From Archaeoglobus sp. (GTDB lineage: Archaea > Halobacteriota > Archaeoglobi > Archaeoglobales > Archaeoglobaceae), in contig JACDNU010000028.1 of assembly GCA_017656505.1 (NCBI GenBank), positions 1-35,167 on the forward strand: DNA of 35,167 bases. The letters are read 5' to 3'. The notes beneath the pieces were generated by a model, which made no database searches, was not told where the DNA came from, and worked only from the letters and a program-made list of their open reading frames with translations. Below, piece by piece: positions 2,846 through 19,790 of the stretch. A program made the translations under genes and the position numbers. Position 1 is the first letter of the stretch, and every line of letters starts with the position of its first letter.

Positions 2846-4747
2846 CTAAATCCCAAGCTTTTTCCTCTTCTCCTCGATTACCTTCTCCAGAGTTTCAGCG
2901 GCTTTAACGACATCTGTTTCAACGTTAAGCAAACCGCCAGTGATATCTTTGAGATCCTCAAGCAACAGCTTTACGAGATTCGGAGCTCCTGTGACTGTTG
3001 GGACCGGGTTGACGTAGGTATACAGCCCGAAAGCCAGGGCGAATATCGCATCAATCGTAGCCTTCTGCTCCATGTACTCAGGCGCAACGGCAACTATCGG
3101 GAGATCCGTGACAGGGGCGTTTAAAGCGCTGGAAATTGCTGCGATCAAATCAGCACATCTACCTGTGTCTGTACAGGTTCCAAAGCTTAAAACCGGAGGA
3201 ATGTTCAACGCCTTGCAAACTTTCTTCAATCCCTCTCCGGCATACTCAATCGCATCGAGGCTGCAGAGTCCAGCAACCTGCAAAGCTGCGTTTCCACAAC
3301 CCATTGAGAGGATCAGAATGTCCCTCTTAATCAGCTCTTTGGCCATTGCAACCGTATGCACATCCTGTCCGTTATCTCTCAGGCTCGTGCAGGAAACAAG
3401 GCCAGCGATGCCCTTTATCGAACCATCTTTTATTGCCTCAAGCAAGGGATCGAGCTTTCCGCCTAAAGCATCCAGAATACTCTCCGTTGAAAATCCAACG
3501 ATAGCTTCCTTGACAGGCAGTCCTGTAATCGCTTCCACACTCTTCCTCCTCTCCTTAAAGTTCTCTATTCCCATTTCCAGCAGCTTCTCTGCTTGCTCTC
3601 TTACTTTTTCAGGAATGTAATCTAATCTCTCATCAACGCCTTCAAAGGCAACAACCTCGCTGACAGGGATTAACTTGAATTTGTACTTCTCCGCATACAT
3701 CGGATCCATGGGTAGAGAACAGTTCATGTCTGCTGCAAAGACGTCAACGCAACCACTCGCAAGAACCGCTTCCTGCATAATCCAGTTTCCGGTGTAGCCG
3801 TAGAATATGTCGTCCATCTCCCATCTCTGGATCATCTCTTGGCCGGTTTCGATGTTTGCAATTATCCTCAGGCCTTTTGCGCCGGCAGCCTTTGCTTTCT
3901 CCTGCCATTCCTTCTCCCTTGCAACCTGAACGAGGGCGAAGCCAACAAAGGGTTCATGTCCGTTAACCAGAACGTTTACGTAGTCAGGATCCAGAACGCC
4001 GAGATCGACTCTCATCTTGTGCGGCCTTGCAATTCCAAAAAGGATGTCCTGACAGTTTTCGAGCACTATCTGGGTTTGGTAGGCCATTGCTATCGACAAT
4101 CGCATGGCCTTCAAAGCAAGGCTGACGTAATATCCATCGACGTTTGTAAGGCAGGAGCTTGTTGAGAGCATCATCTCAGCATAGATTCCACCAGGGAAAA
4201 TATCCAGTTTTCTCCACACCTCTTTTCGCTCTTCGGGAGCTAAAATCTCTACAATCTTACTTGGCTCGTAGTATTTCCTTCTCCAATCCTCCTCAACAAA
4301 ATCGCAGAGCCTTATAGCAACCTCCTCAATCGAACCGCTTGTATCGATACCAAGCCTTTCGGCAAAATTCTTTAATCTCTCTTTCTCCTTTATCTCGAAT
4401 GGTGTTTTGCCTTCAGCGGTGGCTCTCAAAGTCCTTATCGTCTGATCTGCATGATACTGATAGGTTGATGTCCCCATGATATTTCTGAGAAGCATCATCC
4501 TCATTGCCATTCCATCTGCTGTGATTCCACAAACACCTCTCTTATCCTTAGCTGCATCAGCCCTGCAAGGGCCGTTAGAGCAGAGATCACACCTTACACC
4601 ACCCATACAGTAGGGGCATCTCTTATCTGGATCCTTTCCAATTCCCTGTGCTTCATACCTGTCCCATACATTCGACATTCCATCTTTTTTCAATCTCTCA
4701 TACATTTTCAGAACAGATTCGTGGTAAGATACTCTCTCATCTTCCAT
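2846..4747 (-). CDS. cooS: Divergent CooS-type nickel carbon monoxide dehydrogenase
   Basis: The 633-residue length is normal for the catalytic subunit of monofunctional Ni-CODH, which oxidises CO to CO2 and passes electrons to ferredoxin. B-cluster cysteines C53, C56, C61 and C73 are present. Possible D-cluster cysteines C44 and C47 are in a CX2C arrangement. For the C-cluster I see H264, C343, C453, C484 and C525. The position matching C295 of the Carboxydothermus enzyme, normally in a CC-TGNE context, reads N-I-E-TGQE here, so that cysteine is missing. The histidine ladder after residue 90 is reduced to H99; K562 is kept. The fold is clear but CO oxidation is uncertain. A good GAGGTGA site precedes the ATG. 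It is the last gene after two CoA-transferases, 76 bp downstream. T-rich minus-strand sequence at about 2761-2776 could terminate it. Confidence 0.85.
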   Translation of the reverse strand: MEDERVSYHESVLKMYERLKKDGMSNVWDRYEAQGIGKDPDKRCPYCMGGVRCDLCSNGPCRADAAKDKRGVCGITADGMAMRMMLLRNIMGTSTYQYHADQTIRTLRATAEGKTPFEIKEKERLKNFAERLGIDTSGSIEEVAIRLCDFVEEDWRRKYYEPSKIVEILAPEERKEVWRKLDIFPGGIYAEMMLSTSSCLTNVDGYYVSLALKAMRLSIAMAYQTQIVLENCQDILFGIARPHKMRVDLGVLDPDYVNVLVNGHEPFVGFALVQVAREKEWQEKAKAAGAKGLRIIANIETGQEMIQRWEMDDIFYGYTGNWIMQEAVLASGCVDVFAADMNCSLPMDPMYAEKYKFKLIPVSEVVAFEGVDERLDYIPEKVREQAEKLLEMGIENFKERRKSVEAITGLPVKEAIVGFSTESILDALGGKLDPLLEAIKDGSIKGIAGLVSCTSLRDNGQDVHTVAMAKELIKRDILILSMGCGNAALQVAGLCSLDAIEYAGEGLKKVCKALNIPPVLSFGTCTDTGRCADLIAAISSALNAPVTDLPIVAVAPEYMEQKATIDAIFALAFGLYTYVNPVPTVTGAPNLVKLLLEDLKDITGGLLNVETDVVKAAETLEKVIEEKRKKLGI

Positions 4748-4823
4748 AATTTCACCTCTTTTTAAAACAATTAATGAAAAATAAGGGAGGTATTTTACCT
4801 TATCTCCTAAAATTTTAGATGAT

Positions 4824-6146
4824 CTAGATAATGTTATCTTTCTTTAGATCTTCCAGATCCTCCCGTCTGAATCCAAGTAACTCCTTGTATACTTGGTAAT
4901 TGTTCTCTCCAACTTCCTTTCCAATCCATTTCAAGCGGAAAGGAGTCTCACTCAATCTCCACGGGGTGGTGGGTAAAAGCAAGCTCAGTTTTTTGTCCTT
5001 GTAGATCACGAAATCTCCCTTATCCCACCAGAATCTGTCCTCGAGCACTTCTTTTGGTGTCTGAACCTTTGCATAAATCGCGACACCCTCCTTTCCTTCC
5101 TCCTTCCATTTTACCATCCTTTCTGCGAGTTCTCTGAACGTGAATTTCTTTATTGCCTCTTGAATATCCTTGTATGCATGTTTTTGCTTTTCGATGGGAA
5201 TTCTATCGAAAACTGTTGGATATTTCTCCATGAGATGCTCCGCTTCTAGCTGAGTAACCAAAGCCTTGAAGTTTGCATCGGTGTAGCCAGAGGCGAATGC
5301 ATATCCATCTTTGATCTCGTAGAATGAATAGCTGAAAACAGCCGAATCCAAGGGAAGGACTCCAACCTCTAAAGGCTCGCCGAAAGCATGACTCCAGATC
5401 AGCTGCTGAGTGATCTTGCTTACAGCTTCCGTTGAGGTTACATCGATCATTTGGCCTTCTCCGCTCTTCTCTCGGTGAATTAGGGAAAGCAGAACTCCAC
5501 AAACACCCCATATAGCAGCTAAATAGGAACCCATCCAGAAACCTGGGGCGGTTGGAAGATTGTATGGCTCGCCTGCTTCAGGTAGTTCTTTCGTTGCATA
5601 CATGAAGCCCGAGTTTGCTAGACCAAGCAAATTCGAATCAGGAATCTTTGAAAGCTCCTTCGCCCTCGGACCGAAGTGTCCGTAGGCTGAGAAGGCCAGG
5701 TAAATCAGATCAGGCTTAATTTGGCTCAACTGTCTGTAACCAATGCCGACAGAATCCATCCATCCGGGTTGGAAACTCTCTATAACAACATCGCACCGCA
5801 TTATCATTCTTTTGAAAATCTCTCTTCCTTCCTCTTTTTTCAAGTTGAGAGTAATGAATTTCTTATTTCTGCTCTCCACAAGAAAATCCAACCCCATTCC
5901 ATTCAAATAGAACTCTCCAAACGGTGAAATCTCTCTTAGCTCATCGCCTTCTGGAGGTTCTACTTTTATCACCTCTGCACCAAGCTCGGCCAGAAGAGAT
6001 GAAGCGATATGGGCTGAAAGGCTAGCAATACCGACATCTAGAACCCTTATTCCATCTAGAGCCTCAGGCTTAAATTTTGGGTTAGAAGCAAGCTCTTTCG
6101 CGTACTCCCACCATTCCTTTTCTGCATTTTCCGATTTTCCAACCAT
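4824..6146 (-). CDS. CaiB/BaiF family (class III) CoA-transferase
   Basis: At 440 residues it matches the usual class III CoA-transferase length. These enzymes move CoA between carboxylic acids through an aspartyl-CoA intermediate. The N-terminal Rossmann part has VLDVGIASLSAHIASSLLAE and LGAEVIKVEPP. The YGHFGP segment is followed by KIPDSNLLGLANSG, placing the likely catalytic aspartate at D170, close to D169 of formyl-CoA transferase. The start is 9 bp after the stop of the upstream paralogue, with GAGGTGAG overlapping that stop, so the two are co-transcribed and may form a heteromer, as in benzylsuccinate or succinyl-CoA:malate CoA-transferases. The substrate is unknown. Confidence 0.88.
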   Translation of the reverse strand: MVGKSENAEKEWWEYAKELASNPKFKPEALDGIRVLDVGIASLSAHIASSLLAELGAEVIKVEPPEGDELREISPFGEFYLNGMGLDFLVESRNKKFITLNLKKEEGREIFKRMIMRCDVVIESFQPGWMDSVGIGYRQLSQIKPDLIYLAFSAYGHFGPRAKELSKIPDSNLLGLANSGFMYATKELPEAGEPYNLPTAPGFWMGSYLAAIWGVCGVLLSLIHREKSGEGQMIDVTSTEAVSKITQQLIWSHAFGEPLEVGVLPLDSAVFSYSFYEIKDGYAFASGYTDANFKALVTQLEAEHLMEKYPTVFDRIPIEKQKHAYKDIQEAIKKFTFRELAERMVKWKEEGKEGVAIYAKVQTPKEVLEDRFWWDKGDFVIYKDKKLSLLLPTTPWRLSETPFRLKWIGKEVGENNYQVYKELLGFRREDLEDLKKDNII

Positions 6147-6155
6147 TTTCTCACC

Positions 6156-7502
6156 TCACCAGTTGTACATCGGATCTTTTTCGTAGTCAAGGTCTTTTGG
6201 TGGTTTTCTACCGAGAAAATCTGCCCAGTAAACAACTACTCCCTCTCTAACCAGTTCTTCAATCTCCTCTTCGGTTAGACCAAGAAGTTTTTTCAAAACG
6301 TATCGATTGTGGTAGCCTACAGGAGCGCCTGTCCATTTTATCCTTCCTGGCGTTCTACTAAGCTTTGCAGGACTGCCAGCTGCCACCATACTACCGAAAA
6401 TAGGATCATCGTAAAGCCATACGCTCCTTCTCCCCCTTAAATGGATATCTTCATACACCTCGAGACTGTTCCTGACAGGCGATACTGAAAATCCATATTT
6501 CTTTGCGAGTTCAATTATGTCCTTATAACAGCTTTTCGAAACCCATTCGGCAACGATCCTATCAATTTCGTCAGCATTCTCTTTTTTCAGCCTTGAGGAC
6601 GTTCTCGCAAACCTTTCATCTTGGAGTAGATCCTCTCTTCTCATCGCTTTGCAGAGTCTTCTGAATTCATCTTGCGTTAGCGTTGAGATTACGATCAGCT
6701 TTTCATCGAGGGTTTGGTACATGTTTGATGGGGCAATGCTCGGGTCTCTGTTCCCCATTCTCTTCCTGTCCTCGCCTTTAAGGTGGACATAACTAAAAAT
6801 TGAACCCATTATTCTGGGAAACGTCTCAACTTGAGAAACGTCAATATACTGTCCCTTCCCAGTTTTCTCCCTGTAGTATAAGGCTGCAAGGGTGCACATG
6901 AAGCCGGCAGTCGCGGCAATCAGGTCTCCAGGATAGAATGGAAGTTTAAGAGGAATCCTGCCCTCATATCCACTTACTGCTGAAGCCCCGCTCATAGCTT
7001 GGCCACTGGCATCGAAACTGGGCCAATTCCATCTCTCCCCCCACTGTCCATAACCGCTTAAAGAAAGATATATCAGCTTAGGATTTATCTCCTTCAGATA
7101 TCGATAGCTTAACCCCAGCCTGTCCATTGTGCCCGGAACAAAGTTTTCCAGCACGACATCGCTTTTTTTCACAAGTTTAAGAAAGAGGTCCCTTCCCTTC
7201 GGATGTCGAAGATTTATAGAGGTGAAGTACTTGTTCCTTTGGCACCATATTAAGGCTTGGGAAGTCTCCTTCCAGAATCTTGCGTAAATGTCAACGCTTC
7301 TAACAAAATCTCCCATTCCTGGTGGCTCGCCAGGCGGCTCTATTCGTATAACTTCCGCCCCAAACTCTGCAAGCAGAGATCCAGCTTCGGGCCCGAACAG
7401 AACAACGGTCGTATCGAGAACTCTTACGCCCTCCAAAGCCTCGGGTTTTTCAAAGATCTTTTCGAAATCGAAGAGTTCTTCCACCCACTCAAAATAGTTC
7501 AT
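6156..7502 (-). CDS. CaiB/BaiF family (class III) CoA-transferase, first gene of the operon
   Basis: It resembles its downstream neighbour: VRVLDTTVVLFGPEAGSLLA and FGAEVIRIEPPGEPPGMGDF near the N-terminus, then SGYGQWGE and PSFDASGQAMSGA. The likely catalytic aspartate is in FDASGQ (residue 164 from the start chosen here). A longer frame runs back to 7556, but a TATA-like element at 7526-7534 lies 24-32 nt before the ATG at 7502 (MNYFEWVEELF), so the shorter 448-residue leaderless form is preferred. Both paralogues keep the aspartate, unlike benzylsuccinate CoA-transferase, where I recall only one subunit does. A BASS-type transporter is divergent and cooS is downstream, suggesting activation of an imported organic acid. 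The substrate cannot be read from sequence. Confidence 0.87.
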   Translation of the reverse strand: MNYFEWVEELFDFEKIFEKPEALEGVRVLDTTVVLFGPEAGSLLAEFGAEVIRIEPPGEPPGMGDFVRSVDIYARFWKETSQALIWCQRNKYFTSINLRHPKGRDLFLKLVKKSDVVLENFVPGTMDRLGLSYRYLKEINPKLIYLSLSGYGQWGERWNWPSFDASGQAMSGASAVSGYEGRIPLKLPFYPGDLIAATAGFMCTLAALYYREKTGKGQYIDVSQVETFPRIMGSIFSYVHLKGEDRKRMGNRDPSIAPSNMYQTLDEKLIVISTLTQDEFRRLCKAMRREDLLQDERFARTSSRLKKENADEIDRIVAEWVSKSCYKDIIELAKKYGFSVSPVRNSLEVYEDIHLRGRRSVWLYDDPIFGSMVAAGSPAKLSRTPGRIKWTGAPVGYHNRYVLKKLLGLTEEEIEELVREGVVVYWADFLGRKPPKDLDYEKDPMYNW

Positions 7503-7525
7503 GATTTGAAATTTATTTTTAGAAA

Positions 7526-7534
7526 GATATAAAC
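7526..7534 (-). promoter_or_regulatory. TATA-like element of the CoA-transferase/cooS operon
   Basis: On the minus strand GTTTATATC lies 24-32 nt before the ATG at 7502. It supports that start and implies a leaderless transcript. It shares a 119-bp intergenic region with the divergent transporter promoter. Confidence 0.45.
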
Positions 7535-7590
7535 TTAACGAGTTCTCTTCAACCACGATTTTTAAGCTCGGTTAACTTAGACAATCAGCA

Positions 7591-9968: not shown

Positions 9969-11258
9969 TTATTTGATCTCATTTATTCTATAGCCTATGA
10001 AATCTTTCCAACTTTCCAGCTTCGTTACGAAGGATTCGAAGCTCATGGACTCGACTCTGTAAACGTTTATAACGCCAAGTAAATCTCCCTTTCTTATCTC
10101 TCCATCCGTTACTGGAAGAAAGAGAGCATGAGAAATGAATTTCTCGTCTGTAATCTCGGGAGGTATGCCTGGTTGGTAAACTCCAAGCGTTGTACCAATA
10201 TCATTCCTCATTACATATAGCGGAGTTACAATTGAATTTTCAGGTATCACGATCTCTCTGATCTTGATAAAAGCGGGCTTGCCTCTCTCAACCTTTCGCT
10301 TCTCGTCTGATACGATTATATCCCATCTTGCCTTATCTTTCCTTTTGAAACAGGCGGGGTGGATGTACTTCAATTTTTTATCCTTGATGTCGTCCTCCGT
10401 GTATTTGATGTATGCCTTTGAAATTCTTCTCTCTTTAAGCTTTATCTCAGGTTTTCGGGTTGCTACGAAATAAACGTTAACATGGCCTAGAAGTTCACCT
10501 TTCCTAACTTCGCAATCCTCTATCCCAATGACCGATGCTTTTGAGACAACTCTCTCCTCTTCGATGTACGCTTTTCCCTCTCCAAAGATCTCAACGGGAT
10601 AAACATCAACGTTCTCCACCATTCCCCAGCTTACGGTAACCGTGTAGGGTGGCAGGATTATCTCCCTTATCTTTATGTTCCTGACTTCCCCTCGCTTGAG
10701 CTTGAAGTCCTCATCAGAAATTATTGTCTCTGTGTAGGCGAGATTGCTTCTCCAGTAGCCGTGGGTTGACTTCTTAGTTCTAATCGATTTGAGTATTGAG
10801 CCCTCTACATATTTCACTGTAAATTCAATTGTTTCATCACCGTACTCCACCTTCGGGATTTCCACGGTTTTGAGATTGACTATAAGCCCGATACCAATGA
10901 AGATGATCTTAACACTCCCAAGCAGATCGCCCTCTTCAATTTCGTTACTTTCCGTTGCCAGAAATAGTACTTTGTCAACCACTTTTTCTTTCTCCAGTTC
11001 AACATTGTCACCCACAACATCGAGAACGGAGCCATAAGGATGCTTCACACCTCCAATAGAGGATATCATAGTATTCGCGGGAAGTTTGAGGGGTTTTATT
11101 TTAAGCAGAACAATCTCGTTTTTTTCAATCTCTCTCTTCTCATCCGAGACGAGGTACCCCCACCTAACGTAATCTGACATTTTAAAGCCGAAGGGCGTAA
11201 TTTCTCTTGTTTGTCTCTTTAGTTGAGAATCGATTTTTTTTACGAAGTTAACTTCCAT
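9969..11258 (-). CDS. Triple DUF22-domain protein
   Basis: The 429-residue protein is three copies of a roughly 125-residue domain (about 15-130, 145-272 and 285-405) plus a short amphipathic tail. Each copy follows one pattern: a W/Y plus L-V-S-DE segment, a K/R-rich I-K-I-R-E-I strand, a P-x-N/Y-T/S turn, V-D-V, an E-E-E/K acidic stretch and a closing KGELLG or KGDLLGVINVY. This is DUF22, found in one to three copies in archaeal proteins of unknown function. No signal peptide or membrane segment is seen, so it is probably cytoplasmic. The middle copy has lost several positions. It lies 52 bp downstream of an RHH regulator on the same strand and is likely controlled with it. Confidence 0.8.
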   Translation of the reverse strand: MEVNFVKKIDSQLKRQTREITPFGFKMSDYVRWGYLVSDEKREIEKNEIVLLKIKPLKLPANTMISSIGGVKHPYGSVLDVVGDNVELEKEKVVDKVLFLATESNEIEEGDLLGSVKIIFIGIGLIVNLKTVEIPKVEYGDETIEFTVKYVEGSILKSIRTKKSTHGYWRSNLAYTETIISDEDFKLKRGEVRNIKIREIILPPYTVTVSWGMVENVDVYPVEIFGEGKAYIEEERVVSKASVIGIEDCEVRKGELLGHVNVYFVATRKPEIKLKERRISKAYIKYTEDDIKDKKLKYIHPACFKRKDKARWDIIVSDEKRKVERGKPAFIKIREIVIPENSIVTPLYVMRNDIGTTLGVYQPGIPPEITDEKFISHALFLPVTDGEIRKGDLLGVINVYRVESMSFESFVTKLESWKDFIGYRINEIK

Positions 11259-11310
11259 ACCTTATAAATAAATTTAAAAAGTTAATTAATTTATCTGGGT
11301 TTAGTTAGGT

Positions 11311-11844
11311 CTAGATCTCCTCGGTAATCATTATCTTTCTTAGCCCCTCGATGATTTTTACTTTGTAACCGAGGTTTTTAAGAAGTGCTTCGAGATATGT
11401 TTTGAGGAATTTTTGCTCATTTCTCGAGGAGAGAACTAGTGTTACGTTCTTCTCCCCATTTAATTTAACTCTGAATAGGTTCTCATATTCCAGATACTTC
11501 ATTACTTCTACTAAGTCTTTGAGGCCTTTATTTCTTATCTGCCAAGAATGAGCTTCTGCCAATTTCCTTACATTTTCCCAAAATCTGTCTGAAGCTTTTT
11601 CATTTAATTCGTCAAGCATTGCGATCCATAGTTCTATGTCTAGTATTATGTACTCTCTACCGTATAATAATTCTGAATAAATTTTGATTGATTCTGGTGA
11701 AATGTCTTTGAAGTAGTAGTATTGATTAATAGCATGTCTTATAATCTCAGATGCAGTTCTGTTTTCTTTGTGTACGAGTTCTTCTAGTATTCTATTTGTC
11801 TCTTCATCAATGGCAACTGACAGCCTTCTTAGTTTTCCAGCCAT
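11311..11844 (-). CDS. Ribbon-helix-helix transcriptional regulator with unknown C-terminal domain
   Basis: Residues 4-45 form a CopG/MetJ-type ribbon-helix-helix: strand RRLSVAIDEE, helix NRILEELVHKE, then the second helix TASEIIRHAINQYY. A C-terminal domain of about 125 residues follows (IYSELLYGREYIILDIELW...), which I do not recognise. The same two-domain layout and many identical positions recur in the gene at 19248, so they are paralogues bracketing the DUF22/TauE block. The C-terminal domain may sense a ligand. The gene leads into the triple DUF22 gene and faces away from the TauE operon across 343 bp of AT-rich DNA, a natural place for its operator. Confidence 0.85.
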   Translation of the reverse strand: MAGKLRRLSVAIDEETNRILEELVHKENRTASEIIRHAINQYYYFKDISPESIKIYSELLYGREYIILDIELWIAMLDELNEKASDRFWENVRKLAEAHSWQIRNKGLKDLVEVMKYLEYENLFRVKLNGEKNVTLVLSSRNEQKFLKTYLEALLKNLGYKVKIIEGLRKIMITEEI

Positions 11845-12187
11845 AATTAACGGATAACACGTATAATTAATAAACCTTATTGTTAAAGAATATATAGTTA
11901 TACCAAATAGTATTTAATATTATGTTTTATTACACTTTTTTATTGATAAATATTAAAAGTTATTAAATTATGTTAAGTTAGGAGATAGAATCTCGGTAAA
12001 ATCTCCAATCGAACTGGAAAATTCTCCTTAATTTTTTTAAGAGAATAGAAAAGAATTGAAAACATAACCTATTAAAATCCTATTTCGACATAAATGTTAG
12101 TGTTTAGTAGTGATTAGTAAGTTAATTGATTAATTAAAAATAAACATACACAAAAACATTTATTTTCAGGTAAAATTTGTATAAGTT
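11845..12187. promoter_or_regulatory. AT-rich divergent control region with a small palindrome
   Basis: No convincing gene lies in these 343 bp. The region separates the minus-strand RHH gene from the plus-strand microprotein/TauE operon. It contains GAGAT-AGA-ATCTC (11982-11994), an exact inverted repeat with a wider partner in GGAGAT...ATCTCC at 11981-12006. TATA-like CATTTATTTT at 12158-12167 lies 21-30 nt before the small gene at 12188. Ribbon-helix-helix proteins bind short palindromic operators, so this is a candidate binding region. That is inference from layout only. Confidence 0.4.
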
Positions 12188-12325
12188 ATGGTATTTGGAA
12201 AAATATTTGGAACTTGGTATGAAAAGGTAATGAATAATCCTGAACGATTAGAGAAGTTTAGTAATCCAGGGGGCAAGAATGGACTGGAAATGTTCGTTTC
12301 CCTTTTAATAGCAGAGAGGAGGTGA
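12188..12325 (+). CDS. 45-residue microprotein ahead of a TauE/SafE gene
   Basis: The ATG at 12188 opens MVFGKIFGTWYEKVMNNPER and the frame ends LLIAERR-stop at 12325. The stop TGA lies inside the GGAGGTGAT ribosome site of the permease at 12333, which implies translational coupling. A TATA-like element 21-30 nt upstream supports leaderless transcription from this ATG. It would be the first gene of the permease operon. The sequence is amphipathic rather than clearly transmembrane, and no family is recognised. It could be a regulatory subunit or a leader peptide. Confidence 0.5.
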   Translation: MVFGKIFGTWYEKVMNNPERLEKFSNPGGKNGLEMFVSLLIAERR

Positions 12326-12332
12326 TTTTGGA

Positions 12333-13766
12333 ATGGGGGGTTTTGCTGCAGGTGGGGCAGTAATGACGCCGGATATGTTCATCCACATCGGCGTCAATGA
12401 GATAATATTTCTGCTCGCCCTCGGGTTCTTTGGAGGAATGCTTAGCGGTTTCATAGGGAGCGGTGGAGCGTTCGTACTTACGCCGGGTATGATGTCTATA
12501 GGGGTTTACGGCCCAATTGCCGTTGCAAGCAACATGTGCCACAAGTTCCCCAAGGCGATGATAGGTGCATGGAGAAGAAAGAAGGTTGGACATTTGGATG
12601 TTAAACTGGCAGTTCTCATGGCTGTTTCTGCTATCGCAGGTGTGCAAGTAGGAATTCAGGTGCAAAAAAGAATTTTAGAGGCTTTTGGACCAGTTGGTAC
12701 GAACCTTTATGTAAGTATCGCCTTCCTGATAATCCTTCCAAGTGTGGCAGCCATGCTGCTAAGGGATGTGTACAAGTCTAGAAAGTATGGAATTGAGGAC
12801 ACCGAGCCAGAATTCGCAAAGAAGCTTGAGAAGAAGTTCAGATTACCACCGATGATCAAGTTCGATGTTGCTGGAAGAACTCAATCTCTCTGGCTCACAG
12901 TTCCTACTGGATTTGCAACAGGATTTTTAGCTGCTACGATTGCCGTTGGTGGTTTTATTGGTGTCCCGTCAATGATATATGTTATTGGCGCATCTAGTGC
13001 GGTTGCTAGCGGAACTGAGCTTGGAATAGCTTTTGTTATGGGAGCCACGGGGACATTTACTTGGGCATACTTGATGGGAGCTGTTGACTTCAGACTCACA
13101 ACCTTAATTCTCGCTGCCTCGCTGATTGGAGTTCAAATCGGAGCGGTTGGAACGACCTACGTAAGGCAGTATTACATAAAGCTCGCGATGGCCGTTGTTA
13201 TGCTTATCGTGACTGTTAGCAGGGCTCTTGCAGTTCCCGGTTACCTAGTTAAGCTGAATTGGATAACTCTGGATCCCGGATTGGTTTCGCTGTTTGATTC
13301 GCTGGTATTTCCAATCATGGTCGTTGCAATGGTCTCAGTCACTCCAATAGTTCTAGTTCCAATTCTTAACGTCAGAAAAGAGCTGAAAAACATGGGTTTG
13401 CTCGAAAGAGCAGTTACATCGGCTGAACATGAGAGGTCATCCCTCCTAAAGAGGATGGTCATATTTGGAATTCTGACCGGAATAAACTACTATCTGCTTT
13501 TCAGAGACCCGAATTGGTGGCCACAATTCGTTACCACGATCCCGCATGCCGGTCCGTTAATGTCGATCGCGCTCGCAATTGGAGTCATTGGGATAGCGAT
13601 TTACTGGTCAATTATCCACGGCAGTTTTGCCCACAACTTCCTTGACTTTGTGAACATCACGGCTCTGAAGGATGATCTTGCCAAGAGGATAAGTCAAGAA
13701 GGCTATGAGGGAATTAAAACTTGGGCAGCGAGTGTAAGAGGCACTTCGGCCTCGGAATCTTCCTGA
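12333..13766 (+). CDS. TauE/SafE-family membrane permease, long form
   Basis: The 477-residue polytopic protein carries two TauE/SafE half-repeats. The first begins LGFFGGMLSGFIGSGGAFVL then TPGMMSIGV...ASNMCHKFPK. The second begins GFATGFLAATIAVGGFIGVP followed by ASSAVASGTELG. The family (usually about 250-300 residues) exports sulfite, sulfoacetate and other small anions. This member is longer: a charged loop of about 50 residues separates the halves, and a further membrane segment near residue 405 and a soluble tail follow. A strong GGAGGTGAT ribosome site sits 8 nt before ATG 12333, overlapping the stop of the 45-residue gene. DUF22 genes follow. A sulfur-anion substrate fits the family but is unproven. 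Confidence 0.85.
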   Translation: MGGFAAGGAVMTPDMFIHIGVNEIIFLLALGFFGGMLSGFIGSGGAFVLTPGMMSIGVYGPIAVASNMCHKFPKAMIGAWRRKKVGHLDVKLAVLMAVSAIAGVQVGIQVQKRILEAFGPVGTNLYVSIAFLIILPSVAAMLLRDVYKSRKYGIEDTEPEFAKKLEKKFRLPPMIKFDVAGRTQSLWLTVPTGFATGFLAATIAVGGFIGVPSMIYVIGASSAVASGTELGIAFVMGATGTFTWAYLMGAVDFRLTTLILAASLIGVQIGAVGTTYVRQYYIKLAMAVVMLIVTVSRALAVPGYLVKLNWITLDPGLVSLFDSLVFPIMVVAMVSVTPIVLVPILNVRKELKNMGLLERAVTSAEHERSSLLKRMVIFGILTGINYYLLFRDPNWWPQFVTTIPHAGPLMSIALAIGVIGIAIYWSIIHGSFAHNFLDFVNITALKDDLAKRISQEGYEGIKTWAASVRGTSASESS

Positions 13767-13925
13767 AATTGCTAAATTTTTTTAATTATTTTAATATTTT
13801 TGGATGGTTTTGGAATCAATTTCATAATTTATTTTGTGTGGTTATAGTATTGTACTTGAATTTGAACAGAGCTTTTAAGGAAAATATTTATAATAGTTAA
13901 TCATTGTAATATCTGTGGTGGTGGA

Positions 13926-15242
13926 ATGGAAGCCAGCATGGTTTACTGGGTGGATGGTGTGGGTGGCAGAATAGAGATGTTCCGGATAGAATTGAAACCC
14001 TTTGGATATAGAATGGGTTCAATAACACAGTGGAAAACTTTGGTTGCCGATGAAAACGTTTTCGTCGAGAGAGGCAAACCTGCCATAATCAAGGTGAAGA
14101 CCATAAGAACCCCTAAGAATACGATGGTCGGCCCTCTCCACATCATGAGGCATGCCCTTGGCACTGTTGTGGATGTTATCGAATGTGGTATTCCTACAAG
14201 GGTCGAGGAGGAGAAATGCATAAGCCAAGTTCTCTTTGTTTCTGTAGAGAGTGGAGAAGTTAAAAAGGGAGATCTTATTGGTGTTTTGAAAGTAATTTTC
14301 TTGAGAACCGGACTGCTCAGCAGGTTGATGAGCGTCAGCACGCCTGAGATTGAGCTGAAGGAGGAGCCTCTTGAGGCAAATCTAACTTGGAGGGATGACG
14401 GGAATGTTTACAGAGAACCAATAAGAACCAAAGTTCTAGGCTATACGAGCAGCTCCATAGGCGTGTGGAAAGCCCTCGTGGCAGATGAAAACGTGGAGTT
14501 GAGGAAGGGAGAAGTGGTGAGGATCAGGGTTAAAGATGTGAATCTGCCACCTAACACTCTGGTAGTGCCCCTCGCGATAATGAGGAATGCTCACGGCTCA
14601 GTGATCGATGTGGTTCAGCTGGGTAAGCCGAAAAAGCTTGAGGAAGAAAAGGTCATTCATCAGGCTGTTTTCCTTCCTATCGATGACGGAATCGTGGAAA
14701 AAGGTGATTTGATTGGAGTACTGAACGTTTTCTACGTTGGAAATAGCGATTTAACTGCAGTTTTAAAGGAAGCGGAAGTTGAGAAAGTCAATGTGGTTTA
14801 CAGAAGCGGAAAGGGAGTAATAAAAGAGGAGGTGAAGGTTGAACCCTTCGGTTACAGAAGATCCTTGGTGGCATCTTGGGAAGTTTTAATTGCCAACGAG
14901 CACAAAAAGGTGAGGTTTGGAGAGCCATGTATAGTTGAGATAAAGAGTATAGAGATTCCAAAGAACACCATCACCTATCCGCTAAGCATAATGAGGTACG
15001 CGTATGGAACATTCATCGATCTTGTGCCTGAAGGGCCGCCAAAGAAAATTGAGGAGGAGAGAATAATAAATAAAATTCTTTTCCTACCGATCTCGAATGG
15101 AGAGATAAGAGAAGGCCAACTTCTTGGAGTTATAAATCTATACCCAATTGAGATAGGGACTCTGGCCAAGGTTAGACAGTGGTTGGACAGCTGGCTCGAT
15201 GAGATGGGAAGGAGACTTGGAGAACCAGACTGGCCGATATAA
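13926..15242 (+). CDS. Triple DUF22-domain protein
   Basis: The 438-residue protein has three well-preserved DUF22 copies (about 17-135, 150-278 and 290-415). Copies share WKTLVADE-type segments, ERGKPAIIKVK-type strands, PKNT turns, IMR-H/N-A-x-GT/S-V/F-x-D and KKGDLIGVL endings. No signal peptide or membrane segment is visible, so it should be cytoplasmic. A C-terminal amphipathic helix with tryptophans (RQWLDSWLDEM) ends DWPI, echoing the DWPYLW tails of the next two genes. A TATA-like element at about 13884-13893 and a GTGGTGGTGG site just before the ATG support the start. It is better conserved internally than the triple protein at 9969. Confidence 0.83.
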   Translation: MEASMVYWVDGVGGRIEMFRIELKPFGYRMGSITQWKTLVADENVFVERGKPAIIKVKTIRTPKNTMVGPLHIMRHALGTVVDVIECGIPTRVEEEKCISQVLFVSVESGEVKKGDLIGVLKVIFLRTGLLSRLMSVSTPEIELKEEPLEANLTWRDDGNVYREPIRTKVLGYTSSSIGVWKALVADENVELRKGEVVRIRVKDVNLPPNTLVVPLAIMRNAHGSVIDVVQLGKPKKLEEEKVIHQAVFLPIDDGIVEKGDLIGVLNVFYVGNSDLTAVLKEAEVEKVNVVYRSGKGVIKEEVKVEPFGYRRSLVASWEVLIANEHKKVRFGEPCIVEIKSIEIPKNTITYPLSIMRYAYGTFIDLVPEGPPKKIEEERIINKILFLPISNGEIREGQLLGVINLYPIEIGTLAKVRQWLDSWLDEMGRRLGEPDWPI

Positions 15243-15302
15243 TTTATCCTTTTTTATCCTTGAAAGCAGAAAATTTTATAATTTAAGAAACTTATTGAGC
15301 TT

Positions 15303-15794
15303 ATGGAAGTCAAAATAACCTACAAAAATAGAGTACGTGACGAGTCTTACATTTCGGAAGAAGTTGATGTGGAAGAATACGGTTATTTTCTGGGGCCGGG
15401 GGCTTATTTTGAGCCTTTCATTTGTGATGAGGATACTGAGGTTGACGTAAACTCTGTTAGGATAATCAAAGTAAGGGAAGTGGAAATTCCTGAAAATGGT
15501 ATATTAACCCTCCTCGATAGATTTAGACATGCTTTGGGTTTTCTGATTGCTGTAGTTGAAGAAGGGAAATTTGAAAGGATCGAATCCCCCAGAAAGATAA
15601 ACCACGTTGTTTTTCTCCCTCTTGAGAGCGGGAAAATTAAAAAGGGAGAGCTATTGGGTGTGGGGTGCGTTAGAATTGTGGTAGAAAAGCCAAAACCGGT
15701 TTTACTCGAAAAACTTCAGGAATTCGATAGGGCGGTATCAATAGACCCTGAGGTTTTCATCAAGTCAGATTGGCCATATCTCTGGAAAAAGTGA
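15303..15794 (+). CDS. Single DUF22-domain protein with DWPYLW tail
   Basis: The 163-residue protein is one DUF22 domain (about residues 5-130, including GYFLGPGAYFEPFICDED, IPENGIL, RFRHALGFLIAVVEEGK and KKGELLGVG) plus a 30-residue tail ending SDWPYLWKK. It lies 60 bp after the triple-domain gene but has its own TATA-like element (about 15273-15285, ATTTTATAATTTA) 18-30 nt before the ATG, so it may be transcribed separately and leaderless. Its last 15 codons are repeated exactly in the small gene at 15945. The function is unknown. Confidence 0.8.
   Translation: MEVKITYKNRVRDESYISEEVDVEEYGYFLGPGAYFEPFICDEDTEVDVNSVRIIKVREVEIPENGILTLLDRFRHALGFLIAVVEEGKFERIESPRKINHVVFLPLESGKIKKGELLGVGCVRIVVEKPKPVLLEKLQEFDRAVSIDPEVFIKSDWPYLWKK
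15747..15791 (+). repeat. 45-bp direct repeat, copy 1 (inside a DUF22 gene)
   Basis: These 45 bases, starting CCTGAGGTTTTCATCAAG and ending CTCTGGAAAAAG, recur without a mismatch at 16047-16091, exactly 300 bp downstream and in the same reading frame. They encode PEVFIKSDWPYLWKK, the end of the single-domain protein. Confidence 0.95.
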
Positions 15795-15944
15795 TAGGAA
15801 GTGATTACTTAAATTTAATCGGTTTTTATCATTTTTTGTCACAAATCATACATACTACTACCTTTTGTTATCTCAAAATTTGAGTTAGTGCATCTCTTTA
15901 AAATATCATAACAATATTAATATAATAAATTCGCATAACAATAA

Positions 15945-16097
15945 ATGGTGGTAAAGATGCTTGAATACAAATACAAAACAACACAATCCGCGTTAAGGAA
16001 AATGGTGAGCGTATTGAAACGAATCGATAAGGCTATCTCTATCGATCCTGAGGTTTTCATCAAGTCAGATTGGCCATATCTCTGGAAAAAGAATTGA
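15945..16097 (+). CDS. 50-residue microprotein: free-standing DUF22 C-terminal tail
   Basis: The frame MVVKMLEYKYKTTQSALRKM continues to RIDKAISIDPEVF and ends IKSDWPYLWKKN. From residue 27 on it matches the tail of the 163-residue DUF22 protein (RAVSIDPEVFIKSDWPYLWKK), with 45 identical bases, but it lacks the DUF22 domain. ATG 15945 fits a leaderless transcript from AATATTAATATAATAAA (about 15913-15929). The in-frame ATG at 15957 has a GGTGGT site before it, giving 46 residues. Either it is an expressed tail peptide or the scar of a deleted DUF22 gene. Its own promoter, start, diverged N-terminus and intact frame favour expression. Confidence 0.5.
   Translation: MVVKMLEYKYKTTQSALRKMVSVLKRIDKAISIDPEVFIKSDWPYLWKKN
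16047..16091 (+). repeat. 45-bp direct repeat, copy 2 (inside the microprotein gene)
   Basis: Exact copy of 15747-15791. Bases just upstream also match partly (ATCTCTATCGAT against GTATCAATAGAC) but have diverged, so the exact block has sharp limits. This suggests recent gene conversion or strong constraint. Confidence 0.95.
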
Positions 16098-16256
16098 AAG
16101 TATCTTTATATCCTTCAACACAACAACTATATTTTTGTTCGGTCGAGAATTAAGCTTCTAATTATTAACAATTTATCATTAACCTCTATCGGTTTAAATA
16201 GGCCCTCTACATCTTTAGTATTAAGTTTTAATCAATTTTAGTTTAGATTCATAAAA

Positions 16257-16264
16257 TTTATATA
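16257..16264 (+). promoter_or_regulatory. TATA box of the second TauE/SafE operon
   Basis: TTTATATA lies 20-27 nt before ATG 16284. That distance would allow leaderless use of ATG 16284 or a very short leader to TTG 16299. Confidence 0.5.
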
Positions 16265-16283
16265 GTGAAACTAAGAGATAGTT

Positions 16284-17327
16284 ATGGGGGTGGTGGTATT
16301 GAAATCTCATATCTCAGGATCATCTATTTCAAGAGTATCTATAGTCTTAGACGGCTCTCATCGGAGTAAATTGTTTGTACTGACTCTTGCTCTTTTTATT
16401 TTCATAGGAATCTCAGGAACAGCAGCTGCTGAAGAATCAGCAAGTATGGGTCTCTCCCCTGCAGAATTTTTTATACTTTTTTTGGTGATAAGCATTTTTA
16501 TCGGGATGGTGGCGGTTCTGGCGGGGGTAGGGGGAGGTGTAATCTTCACCCCGCTTATGATGGGTTTTACACCCATCGACGGATTAATCATAAGAGGAAC
16601 GGGCCTTTTCGTCGCAATGGCTGGAGCATTGGTTGCGGCAAGACCGTTCCTTAAGAGAGGTTTGGCAAACATAAGATTGCTTTATTTTGCTGCTGTTCCA
16701 TATTCCGCATCTGCGGTTGCCGGAGCGTTACTTGCTGTTTATATCAAGCAAACAATGGGTGTAACCGGGGAAGCTTTCGTCAGATTAGCGCTCGGAAGCT
16801 TAGTAATAATTATTGCAATGCTTTTTGTCTTCGCTGGTGGTAGAATAGAGTACCCAGAAGTGAGAAAGGTTGACAGATTCACCCAAAGGGTTGGACTTGC
16901 GATGGCGTACTGGGAGGAATCTATCGGATCTGTTGTGCAGTATCAGGTTACGAGGTCTTGGTTAGGCTTGCTGATGTTTTCTGGTGTTGGTTTGATCTCA
17001 GGACTGTTTGGGCTTGGTGCAGGATGGGCAATGGTGCCGGTGTTAAATCTCGTCATGATGGCTCCCTTGAAAGTAGCAGCTGCGAGCAGCAAGGTGCTTA
17101 TCGGAATAGGTGATACTGCTGCGATATGGCCTTACATAATGCAGGGAACGATATTTCCCCTCTTCGCAGTTCCATGCATGATCGGCTTGATAGTGGGCAC
17201 GATACTTGGTGCAAAAATAATGATTAGAGTTAGGGCAGGTTTTGTAAGGTATCTAATCATTGGAATAATGTTTATTTCAGGAATAAGGTTGGTTCAGCAG
17301 TCCTTATCCATGTTGGGATATATTTGA
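16284..17327 (+). CDS. TauE/SafE-family membrane permease with N-terminal extension
   Basis: The 347-residue protein starts with a serine-rich stretch and a signal-like hydrophobic segment (about 31-48, then GTAAAEESA), followed by a TauE/SafE body with two half-repeats: VLAGVGGGVIFTPLMMGF and GLFGLGAGWAMVPVLNLV. It is shorter than the permease at 12333 and not a close copy. The start is ambiguous: ATG 16284 follows the TATA box at leaderless distance, while in-frame TTG 16299 sits just after GGGGGTGGTGG, a ribosome-site-like run. The stop overlaps the GAGGTGAT site of the next gene, so the two are co-translated. Small-anion (sulfite or related) transport is inferred from the family only. Confidence 0.83.
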   Translation: MGVVVLKSHISGSSISRVSIVLDGSHRSKLFVLTLALFIFIGISGTAAAEESASMGLSPAEFFILFLVISIFIGMVAVLAGVGGGVIFTPLMMGFTPIDGLIIRGTGLFVAMAGALVAARPFLKRGLANIRLLYFAAVPYSASAVAGALLAVYIKQTMGVTGEAFVRLALGSLVIIIAMLFVFAGGRIEYPEVRKVDRFTQRVGLAMAYWEESIGSVVQYQVTRSWLGLLMFSGVGLISGLFGLGAGWAMVPVLNLVMMAPLKVAAASSKVLIGIGDTAAIWPYIMQGTIFPLFAVPCMIGLIVGTILGAKIMIRVRAGFVRYLIIGIMFISGIRLVQQSLSMLGYI

Positions 17328-17338
17328 GGTGATTTTGT

Positions 17339-17788
17339 ATGCAAGAGATAAGAGGCAAGTTTAGTTCAGAATCAAGACCAAAACCACCCCTCTCCGGGGT
17401 TATTTACGGAGAATTGGCTTACTGGGTAGTTTTGATTGGAATGGTCGTATCTATAATTGGAGTCTCACTTATCCTAACGACGGATAAAAATTACATCGAT
17501 TCGTCATGCCTGTTGAACAATCTCTGGGCTGGCGATAATCCTTCAGAGATCTGGGAAAGATGTGCAGGAACACATCCAGAGGGTCACTGGTATCTGGAAA
17601 AGCTTGGAACAGGAGATGGTATTGCAATGCTGGGTATAGCTTTCGCCTGTTTGGCAGCTGTTCTCGGGGTATGGGCATCAATATTCGCTCTAATCAAAGA
17701 CAGAGAACACTTGTTTGTTGTTTTCGCTTTCATCGTTGCGATAATTCTAACGGCCAGTGCATTGGGAATTATTCAGGCAGGACATTAG
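17339..17788 (+). CDS. Three-helix membrane partner of the TauE/SafE permease
   Basis: The 149-residue protein has membrane segments at about 27-47, 94-113 and 121-145. Between the first two is an exposed loop of about 45 residues with C57, C75, H79 and H83, which could form a disulfide or bind metal. The layout and the GDGIAMLGIAFACL region recall DUF1634, a small protein often encoded beside TauE/SafE permeases, but I cannot confirm membership. The gene starts 11 bp after the permease stop behind GAGGTGAT, so the two products probably form one complex. A long T-rich tract follows the stop. Confidence 0.6.
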   Translation: MQEIRGKFSSESRPKPPLSGVIYGELAYWVVLIGMVVSIIGVSLILTTDKNYIDSSCLLNNLWAGDNPSEIWERCAGTHPEGHWYLEKLGTGDGIAMLGIAFACLAAVLGVWASIFALIKDREHLFVVFAFIVAIILTASALGIIQAGH

Positions 17789-17795
17789 ATGCTCA

Positions 17796-17833
17796 TTTTT
17801 TTATTTATTTTATTTTTCCTTTTTTATTTTTTT
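17796..17833 (+). terminator. T-rich terminator of the TauE2 operon
   Basis: Almost uninterrupted runs of T (TTTTTTTATTTATTTTATTTTT and onwards) start 8 bp after the stop at 17788. They fill the gap before the convergent DUF22 gene ending at 17842. Archaeal transcription ends at such oligo-T tracts without needing a hairpin. Confidence 0.6.
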
Positions 17834-17841
17834 AGAATCTC

Positions 17842-18324
17842 TCAGTCAAGTCTTATACCACCCACATCCTCCGCCCATTTAGCTCCCTCTACCCATTTCG
17901 ATATCATTTCTGAAATCTTGCTGAGTGCGCTCGTTTTTACGTATTGCACATTAATTACACCTATTAATTCACCTTTTTTAACAGTGCCATTGGAGATTGG
18001 AAGAAACACTGTTTGACTGATCTTTTTTTCTTCCTCTATTTTCTTCAAACCATCTGGGCCAAAAACATCGAGAACGAGTCCCAGTGCATGTCTCATAACC
18101 GGTAAGATGGATATTATGGCATTTTTGGGGATAGCTGTCTCTTGAACATCAATCACACAAACCTTGCTCTCCACAACCTCAACGTCTTTGGCTGATATCA
18201 ACATCTTCCATTCCGCGATAGAACTCAATTGAAATCCAAAAGGTTCAATCTCAATCGTTTTTCTTTCCAGTTCGCCCTTAATTTTGTCTTTCCAGTAAAC
18301 AATATCAATTTTTTCAGACGGCAT
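17842..18324 (-). CDS. Single DUF22-domain protein
   Basis: The 160-residue protein has one clear DUF22 domain at about residues 18-135 (EPFGFQLSSIAEWKMLISAK, IPKNAIISILPVMRHALGLV, EEEKKISQTVFLPISNGTV, KKGELIGVINVQY) and an amphipathic tail with tryptophans (MISKWVEGAKWAEDVGG). It is closest by eye to the copies in the 438-residue protein. It is cytoplasmic by composition. It is convergent with the TauE2 operon and divergent from the small gene at 18440. A TATA-like ATATTTTAAC element on the minus strand (about 18340-18352) fits a leaderless start at 18324. Confidence 0.8.
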   Translation of the reverse strand: MPSEKIDIVYWKDKIKGELERKTIEIEPFGFQLSSIAEWKMLISAKDVEVVESKVCVIDVQETAIPKNAIISILPVMRHALGLVLDVFGPDGLKKIEEEKKISQTVFLPISNGTVKKGELIGVINVQYVKTSALSKISEMISKWVEGAKWAEDVGGIRLD

Positions 18325-18439
18325 ATTACTACTTATTCTAACAGTTAAAATATTTTTTCGTCAAATTTTTTAGATTTAGGAAAATTTAAATATTACTTTA
18401 TACTAAATTTTAATACTAGATAGGGGGGTGTAGTGACAA

Positions 18440-18625
18440 ATGATAAAATTTAGTGAGTTAAGAAGTTTGATTGGAAAGATAATTGATTTCGAATCCTTGG
18501 CTGAGTTTGTCGATCCACCCACCATGGGGGAGCTTTTTAATCCACTAGATGATCCTTCAATCGAGCAACTGGAGGAGAAGTATCTCAGAATACCCGGAAA
18601 GTTTCCGAACTCAAATTTAGCTTGA
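18440..18625 (+). CDS. 61-residue acidic microprotein
   Basis: MIKFSELRSLIGKIIDFESL opens a short helical N-terminus. A proline-rich acidic middle (DPPTMGELFNPLDDPSIEQLEEKY) and the end GKFPNSNLA follow. GGGGGGTGTAGTG precedes the ATG and TATA-like CTTTATACTAAA lies upstream, so it has both promoter and ribosome-site signals. T-rich sequence at about 18627-18660 could terminate it. It is not homologous by eye to the other microproteins here, but like the DUF22 tails it is short, charged and soluble. No family is recognised. Confidence 0.5.
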   Translation: MIKFSELRSLIGKIIDFESLAEFVDPPTMGELFNPLDDPSIEQLEEKYLRIPGKFPNSNLA

Positions 18626-18797
18626 GATTTTATTTTATTTTATAAATTTAATTTATTTTTGAATACAATACTGATTCATATAGCTTATTAAATCTAATGA
18701 TTAATCACTAAGAATTTTATCACAAAAAATAAATAATATGAAATACACATAAATAAGAATAAAAGGAGATATACATTATTAAAAGAGGGTGGTGGGT

Positions 18798-19106
18798 ATG
18801 GATAAAACTAAAGCTGAATGCGAACAAATGCTTTGTGATGAAGAAGGGTGCTGGATCAAGGTTTACATTCCTAAGAGGTGGATCGAGTTTATAAATGAAT
18901 ATACAGAATATATTGGCAAGAAAGATCCCAAAGAAAAGGAGAAGTACATTTTAATCGAGCTGCAATCCAGCATCCGGGACTTCATCTTCGCGGTTCTTGA
19001 TTCTATGAAAAGCACGGACCCAGAAATGAGGGACCATTTTGTGGAGAAATACAGATTACACGAGGATATAAAAATAAGTTACGAGAAGGTGTACCTTCCG
19101 CAATAA
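18798..19106 (+). CDS. Hypothetical 102-residue soluble protein in the DUF22 cluster
   Basis: The ATG at 18798 directly follows GGGTGGTGGG and is chosen over the upstream GTG codons that overlap that site. The product is charged and mostly helical by composition, with three cysteines near the N-terminus (C8, C13 and C19, in MDKTKAECEQMLCDEEGC). The core is IKVYIPKRWIEFINEYTEYI, and a later helix is IELQSSIRDFIFAVLDSM. It has no membrane segment and no recognised domain. It lies between the 61-residue gene and the second RHH regulator on the same strand, so it may be a further component of the module. Confidence 0.6.
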   Translation: MDKTKAECEQMLCDEEGCWIKVYIPKRWIEFINEYTEYIGKKDPKEKEKYILIELQSSIRDFIFAVLDSMKSTDPEMRDHFVEKYRLHEDIKISYEKVYLPQ

Positions 19107-19247
19107 TCTTTTAATTTCCCATTTTTTAGTCAATCGAGCGATCACTAGATTCTCTTGCTCTCTCTTAGCGATATTAAACAATGTTATTTTTTAATTTGTA
19201 GTATTGTTTGGGAAAAATTTTTATTAAATGAGACATTGTGTTAATCA

Positions 19248-19790
19248 ATGACACTAAAAACGAGGAGACTTTCTGTTGCAGTAGATCCCTCAACATACCG
19301 AATACTCGAGAGACTGGTTGAGAAGGAAAAGAAGTCCATCTCCGAAATTGTTAGAAGATCGATAAATGTTCTTGCAAAGATGTCCGAGGACAGCGATCTT
19401 AAGTCACTGGAGGAGGCAATGATTTATTCGGAGCTCTTGTCTGGGGAAGAGCATGTAATAGTTGACATAGAAATTTGGGCCGCAATTCTTGAAATGATCG
19501 ATGAAGATAAAAGGGATGAGTTTCTGGAGATCGTTAGGAATGTTGGTTTTGAGCACGGTATACAATTTCGCAAGCGTGGATTGAACTCCATACAGGATGT
19601 CTTGAGATACCTTGAGCACGAGAAGTGGTTCAGGCTGAAACTTAACTCGGGCAAGGCGTTCACACTGGTGCTATCGGTGAAAGACGAGCTTAAGATTTTG
19701 GAGGAGTTCTTGAAGGGAATGTTTGAAGCAATGAGGTTCAAGGTAGAAATAAAAGAGTGTTACAAGAAGCTGATTATTTTGGAAAATTAG
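19248..19790 (+). CDS. Ribbon-helix-helix regulator, paralogue of the gene at 11311
   Basis: The 180-residue protein has an N-terminal ribbon-helix-helix (TRRLSVAVDPSTYRILERLV then SISEIVRRSINVLAKM) and the same C-terminal domain of about 125 residues as the regulator at 11311. Shared positions include IYSELL-x-G-x-E, DIE-x-W-x-A, YLE-x-E and TLVLS. The last third (FKVEIKECYKKLIILEN) aligns with the end of its paralogue. It is probably a dimeric DNA-binding protein with an unknown input domain. TTTTTATTA at about 19217-19226 lies about 25 nt before the ATG, so a leaderless transcript is likely. With its paralogue it brackets the DUF22/TauE genes. Confidence 0.85.
   Translation: MTLKTRRLSVAVDPSTYRILERLVEKEKKSISEIVRRSINVLAKMSEDSDLKSLEEAMIYSELLSGEEHVIVDIEIWAAILEMIDEDKRDEFLEIVRNVGFEHGIQFRKRGLNSIQDVLRYLEHEKWFRLKLNSGKAFTLVLSVKDELKILEEFLKGMFEAMRFKVEIKECYKKLIILEN

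Follow-up and report, generated by a model that had tools for sequence, protein, structure and literature searches.

What do four proteins of the DUF22 family (PF01629), for which we know of no described function, do among anion permeases and their regulators? The question is raised by a block of genes at positions 9969–19790 of JACDNU010000028.1, a contig of Archaeoglobus sp., a heat-loving sulfate-reducing archaeon, analysed here over a stretch of 35,167 nucleotides (nt), hereafter the window. The block combines the DUF22 proteins with two permeases of the TSUP (TauE/SafE) family and two RHH regulators. Judging from sequence, it may be a module with which sulfite/sulfate-reducing Archaeoglobaceae transport sulfur oxyanions and respond to them, a reading to which we give somewhat less than an even chance. 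A C-terminal tail shared by otherwise unrelated proteins and a small open reading frame (micro-ORF) as a conserved part of the block were not reported earlier and are added here.

A conserved block around two permeases

The block consists of the following features, with strand in brackets.

9969..11258 (−): D22a, three DUF22 domains (DUF22 x3), 429 amino acids, without the DWP tail described below; PF01629 in three stretches, E 5e-72.
11311..11844 (−): RHH24, regulator with a putative C-terminal V4R/TRAPP/H-NOX-like domain; RHH_1 E 2e-7, C-terminal fold proposed from the model of its paralogue.
12333..13766 (+): TauE_A, TSUP permease, 477 amino acids; PF01925 E 2e-34, orthologues at 62–94% identity.
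13926..15242 (+): D22b, DUF22 x3, 438 amino acids, C-terminus VRQWLDSWLDEMGRRLGEPDWPI; PF01629 E 2e-116, and the tail.
15303..15794 (+): D22s, single DUF22 domain (DUF22 x1), C-terminus SIDPEVFIKSDWPYLWKK; PF01629 E 2e-28, and the tail.
15957..16097 (+): micro-ORF, 46 amino acids counted from this ATG, C-terminus SIDPEVFIKSDWPYLWKKN; conservation and a 68-nt repeat.
16284..17327 (+): TauE_B, TSUP permease, 347 amino acids; PF01925 E 6e-33.
17339..17788 (+): DUF1634, small membrane partner of TauE_B; PF07843 E 7e-9.
17842..18324 (−): D22s, DUF22 x1, on the opposite strand; PF01629 E 5e-33, residues 1–125 modelled.
18440..18625 (+): 61-amino-acid protein similar, by alignment, to the N-terminal part of cluster c77, the other small membrane partner of TauE; conserved in L054, L061 and L091.
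18789..19106 (+): 105-amino-acid protein, conserved in L048, L051 and L054; a Pfam search gave no match.
19248..19790 (+): RHH23, regulator with a putative C-terminal V4R/TRAPP/H-NOX-like domain; RHH_1 E 1.5e-6, AlphaFold2 (AF2) model and Foldseek.

This layout agrees with the original prediction, made from the letters of the window, which had named four DUF22 proteins (3+3+1+1 domains, 8 in all by Pfam), two permeases, a three-helix membrane partner and two paralogous RHH regulators. The membrane partner is DUF1634, which lies directly 3′ of TauE_B in most relatives of the same type and of which a literature search found no mention, and the RHH pair shares 45% identity. Both permeases score above the curated Pfam cut-off across the whole model (119.7 and 114.9 bits), as do the RHH proteins (31 and 28.4 bits against a cut-off of 20.5; PF01402). 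Of four small proteins that had been proposed, conservation backs three (15957–16097, 18440–18625 and 18789–19106) and leaves the fourth without support.

We compared the neighbourhoods of about 80 DUF22 loci from one archaeal phylum after clustering their genes (L denotes a locus and G a genome). The order is TauE_A, DUF22 x3 or x1, TauE_B, DUF1634, DUF22 x1, small proteins and RHH, and the opposite end bears another DUF22 x3 gene and another RHH gene. Four more genomes of the genus show the same block (L048, L051, L054 with L055, and L061), and a second genus has part of it (L094, L096). In the congener G254 (L060), the block is absent as a unit, and its flanks are found together with one DUF22 gene. 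The retention of this order among relatives places the association beyond chance, and so does proximity: of the 58 TauE genes in 10 genomes, 20 have a DUF22 gene no more than 5 kb away, where 1.15 would be expected, although these genomes are related and the 20 cases are not independent events. The window's own genome has 15 DUF22 matches at four places; of its seven TauE matches, two lie inside the block.

The permease part also occurs by itself. At L125–L128, in genomes lacking a DUF22 match, the neighbours of TauE_A are universal stress proteins (USP; PF00582), in the position that DUF22 takes elsewhere, and the same kind of RHH regulator; an RHH gene likewise adjoins TauE at L138 without DUF22. 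The earlier view of the RHH genes as DUF22-linked is not borne out as it stood: because they also flank TauE_A or TauE_B in genomes without DUF22, they follow the permease. The intergenic region between RHH24 and TauE_A (11845–12332), aligned with three relatives, has conserved A+T-rich stretches and no operator that could be named.

A C-terminal tail shared by unrelated proteins

The DUF22 x3 proteins adjoining TauE end in WLDEMGxxFxExDWPxW (GEPDWPI in the window) and the DUF22 x1 proteins in SDWPYLWKK, while a second class of TauE-linked DUF22 x3 proteins has the C-terminus YVEGLQ instead. Similar endings appear on proteins of other families. RHH regulators of G117 and G268 end in SDWPMW and SDWPVW, TauE_A paralogues of G117, G170 and G268 in KWPVW, EWPLW and RWPLW, and short frames overlapping the TauE_A stop codon in TEWPYW (G117, G102 and G268) or TPWPYW (G170). 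A profile built from DUF22 tails alone, run against 58,882 frames from a set enriched in module loci, picks up an RHH regulator in each of two species, exactly at the C-terminus (E 5.9e-7 and 2.6e-5). Its matches to TauE_A paralogues and micro-ORFs are far weaker (E 1–10), but each of them also ends exactly at the C-terminus. When the profile includes RHH and TauE_A rows and whole genomes are searched, every match up to E 0.1 is a module gene. The pattern TGGCCNNNNTGGTRR gives five matches in G117, all five module genes, against a background of about two per genome for the reversed pattern. At the level of sequence, a tail of the form DWPxW or SDWPYLWKK is thus common to DUF22 and RHH proteins and, less securely, to TauE_A paralogues and conserved micro-ORFs.

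The shorter pattern DWPYL, nearly all of whose matches are module genes, occurs as two neighbouring copies 274–304 bp apart in all five module-bearing genomes of the genus, and not at all in G254. The second copy is the end of the micro-ORF (15957–16097 in the window), which has a counterpart in all five of these genomes and in which 68 nt from the 3′ end of D22s are repeated.

The tail could be a docking peptide that gathers DUF22 and the micro-protein on one receptor and, in some species, the RHH regulator and one permease as well, so that transport and gene control would answer one signal. It might instead be no docking tag, its DNA having passed from one 3′ end to another by recombination, or it might mark proteins for degradation or anchor them in the membrane. 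The tail helices are amphipathic and Trp-rich, in favour of such explanations, which we regard as rather doubtful. Recombination has left its mark on one pair: within a species, the D22s and micro-ORF tails share 78 of 90 synonymous codons, compared with about half between species, and this homogenization indicates that gene conversion plays a part there. The RHH and DUF22 tails of one genome, however, share 58–65% of their nucleotides, and because their DNA differs to this degree recent copying does not explain them. In addition, micro-ORFs compared between G117 and G102 or G268 show synonymous changes more frequently than amino-acid changes, which also speaks against these alternatives.

Elsewhere in the window's own genome, on contig C20 (L204:7182–7289), a 35-amino-acid frame ends in ESKDWPYLFK, resembling the DUF22 tails of G249, G244 and G004. 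It has no in-frame open DUF22 domain and looks like a remnant.

DUF22 beyond the permease clusters

DUF22 is widespread in one archaeal phylum, where 142 of the 394 genomes searched have it, and its neighbours are varied. A general tie between the family and anion permeases, as first suggested, does not hold: of the 75 loci in which a DUF22 gene was called, 16 have TauE within five genes (one of these 16, L088, is a fragment), and 15 have an fpoP-type gene directly beside DUF22, spread over three families. TauE is enriched next to DUF22, but the family as a whole does not consist of TauE accessories. Triple DUF22 genes face qmoABC at L067, L070 and L078 (QmoC was confirmed for L078), DUF22 faces molybdenum (Mo)-oxidoreductase genes at L072 and L076, and aldehyde-ferredoxin-oxidoreductase-like genes are also among the neighbours.

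Methanosarcina-like genomes show the gene order DUF22, fpoP-type, fpoA, B, C, D and H, where the subunits take their names from inspection by eye and from their order; the published order of the Fpo genes is fpoPABCDHIJJKLMNO (PMC2838876). At L107:1–19501, and also at L108, L109, L114 and L047, a single-domain DUF22 adjoins the fpoP-type zinc-ribbon gene that heads an F420H2 dehydrogenase operon. We considered the small zinc-ribbon protein as FpoO and rejected this in favour of an fpoP-type protein, because the gene lies immediately 5′ of fpoA and the two clusters of the protein match each other by profile. A role for DUF22 in or near the F420H2 dehydrogenase complex is possible.

These neighbours raise the alternative that DUF22 is a general accessory or regulator of the complexes of anaerobic respiration and energy conversion (Fpo/Fqo, Qmo and Mo-oxidoreductases), with a function of its own unrelated to anions and the TauE clusters as one recruited case. 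The breadth of contexts favours it. The strong proximity to TauE within Archaeoglobaceae does not, and neither does the distribution of the DWP tail, which DUF22 proteins associated with TauE carry, as do a few more, and which the fpoP-linked ones lack. We consider this alternative unlikely. DUF22 now has three concrete contexts (TSUP permease, fpoP/F420H2 dehydrogenase and Qmo/Mo-oxidoreductase), a model fold and, in the tail, a testable handle.

A literature search on DUF22 found no relevant mention, and a scan of genome contigs with one DUF22 domain found no relative. In a separate arrangement, a triple DUF22 gene stands beside two genes resembling TldD/PmbA and a Lon-like protease (L045, L049, L052 and L057); L120, from another family, is similarly arranged. 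Upstream of the block in the window, positions 2846–7556 hold, named by eye, a cooS-like CO dehydrogenase gene followed by two CaiB-like CoA-transferase genes, an order also found beside DUF22 in L060. Two adjoining frames at 1736–2633 resemble, again by eye, the halves of an insertion sequence (IS)-type transposase/integrase, a helix-turn-helix followed by an rve-like core. Among RNA families, a search of the window found tRNA alone.

A probable link between the permeases and sulfur oxyanions

Among 32 genomes whose dsrA scores above the cut-off, 16 carry a TauE_A orthologue, compared with 2 of 23 others (P = 0.001 without correction for kinship, P = 0.02 at the level of genera), and no genus lacking dsrA has one. 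At L127, TauE_A adjoins qmoABC and aprA, and the qmoABC genes next to triple DUF22 at L067, L070 and L078 likewise favour this link. Because TauE_A is nearly confined to genomes with dsrA and lies beside qmoABC–aprA in one of them, a sulfur-oxyanion role, which the original prediction had raised as a possibility, is supported by genomic context. In A. fulgidus, a microarray study found the permeases AF0121m and AF0123–AF0124 and the universal stress protein AF1526 upregulated on H2/CO2 with thiosulfate, and tentatively assigned sulfite import to another TauE, AF1562 (PMC3949148). By interpolated position, AF0121m, AF0123–AF0124 and AF1526 would lie near the DUF22/TauE loci of G117.

The module could instead serve another anion or a stress, with the co-occurrence of dsrA reflecting shared ancestry only. 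TSUP proteins are poorly characterized and their substrates cannot be predicted from sequence (PMC5840216), the clusters of G249 and G244 lie near a gene that by eye resembles a PiT phosphate transporter, and support from dsrA is weak once kinship is corrected for. This alternative would leave the qmoABC–aprA neighbourhood and the absence of TauE_A from all genera without dsrA unaccounted for, and we judge it improbable, more so than any other considered here.

Predicted folds and a proposed module

Structure prediction of a single DUF22 domain (residues 1–125 of 17842–18324), a check that had been suggested along with the layout, gives an all-beta model with a predicted local distance difference test (pLDDT) score of 94.5. 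In a Foldseek search of the PDB with this model, nearly all of the top 50 matches are dUTPases or dCTP deaminases, at weak E values (0.13 or higher) and template modelling (TM) scores mostly of 0.3–0.47. Homology at the profile level was not supported, as hhalign against dUTPase profiles gives probabilities of 0.6% and 0.3%, no better than controls; phmmer and profile searches of DUF22 against PDB sequences found nothing significant. The domain looks like a dUTPase-type beta barrel in the model, without support from sequence. The AF2 model of RHH23 (pLDDT 80) matches TRAPP Bet3–Trs33 (E 2.8e-4) and H-NOX (E 1.6e-2) with TM scores of about 0.34–0.41; we take these TRAPP subunits and H-NOX domains to belong to the V4R superfamily. 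Heme binding by the RHH regulators was considered and dropped, for lack of a suitable His common to the whole family.

In the module that we propose, the core, as conservation shows, consists of TauE_A, TauE_B with its DUF1634 partner, and the RHH regulators with their putative V4R/H-NOX-like ligand domain. DUF22, observed in the position of the universal stress protein, would act as a cytoplasmic accessory of this permease core, its triple form perhaps making a pseudo-trimer of the dUTPase-like barrel. The likely cargo would be sulfite, thiosulfate or sulfate. A bolder version, which we hold to be unlikely and a shade less probable than the reading of the tail as no tag at all, is that one C-terminal docking peptide holds unrelated parts together (DUF22, RHH, TSUP permease and micro-proteins) and physically couples anion flux to transcription; the receptor may then be the DUF22 pseudo-trimer, in the manner of the dUTPase C-terminal arm closing over a neighbouring subunit.

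Several observations weigh against a sulfur-oxyanion module built in this way. Most DUF22 loci are without TauE, several genomes carry TauE_A and RHH but no DUF22, and half of the genomes with dsrA, the congener G254 among them, have no TauE_A. The RHH and TauE proteins of the window itself do not carry the tail, the profile of DUF22 tails alone gives TauE_A paralogues and micro-ORFs weak scores, and any resemblance of DUF22 to dUTPases is at the level of fold only. These clusters are direct candidates for the passage of sulfite and thiosulfate across the membrane in sulfate-reducing archaea.

Comparison with known systems

Membership of DUF22 is clear for all four block proteins, which score 98.6 to 381.6 bits, far above the curated cut-off of 25 bits. 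Compared with the dUTPase and dCTP deaminase beta-clip fold, which supplies nearly all of the top 50, though weak, PDB matches and whose dUTPase trimer three tandem DUF22 domains would suit, DUF22 differs in having no profile similarity and no recognized catalytic motifs. The regulators resemble RHH (CopG/Arc-type) repressors with V4R/H-NOX sensor domains in their RHH_1 N-terminus and, tentatively, in a C-terminal model that matches TRAPP Bet3/TPC6 and H-NOX; they differ in having no His suited to heme conserved across the set, and confidence in the model is moderate. Universal stress proteins beside permeases hold the same place next to TauE_A when DUF22 is missing, but are an unrelated protein family. 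As a whole, the block is close to TSUP operons (PF01925), such as that of the Cupriavidus TauE sulfite exporter, in its two TauE-family permeases, small membrane partner and linked regulator. It differs from them by its putative DUF22 accessories, RHH–V4R-type regulators and shared C-terminal tail, and we know of no described TSUP operon with any of these three.

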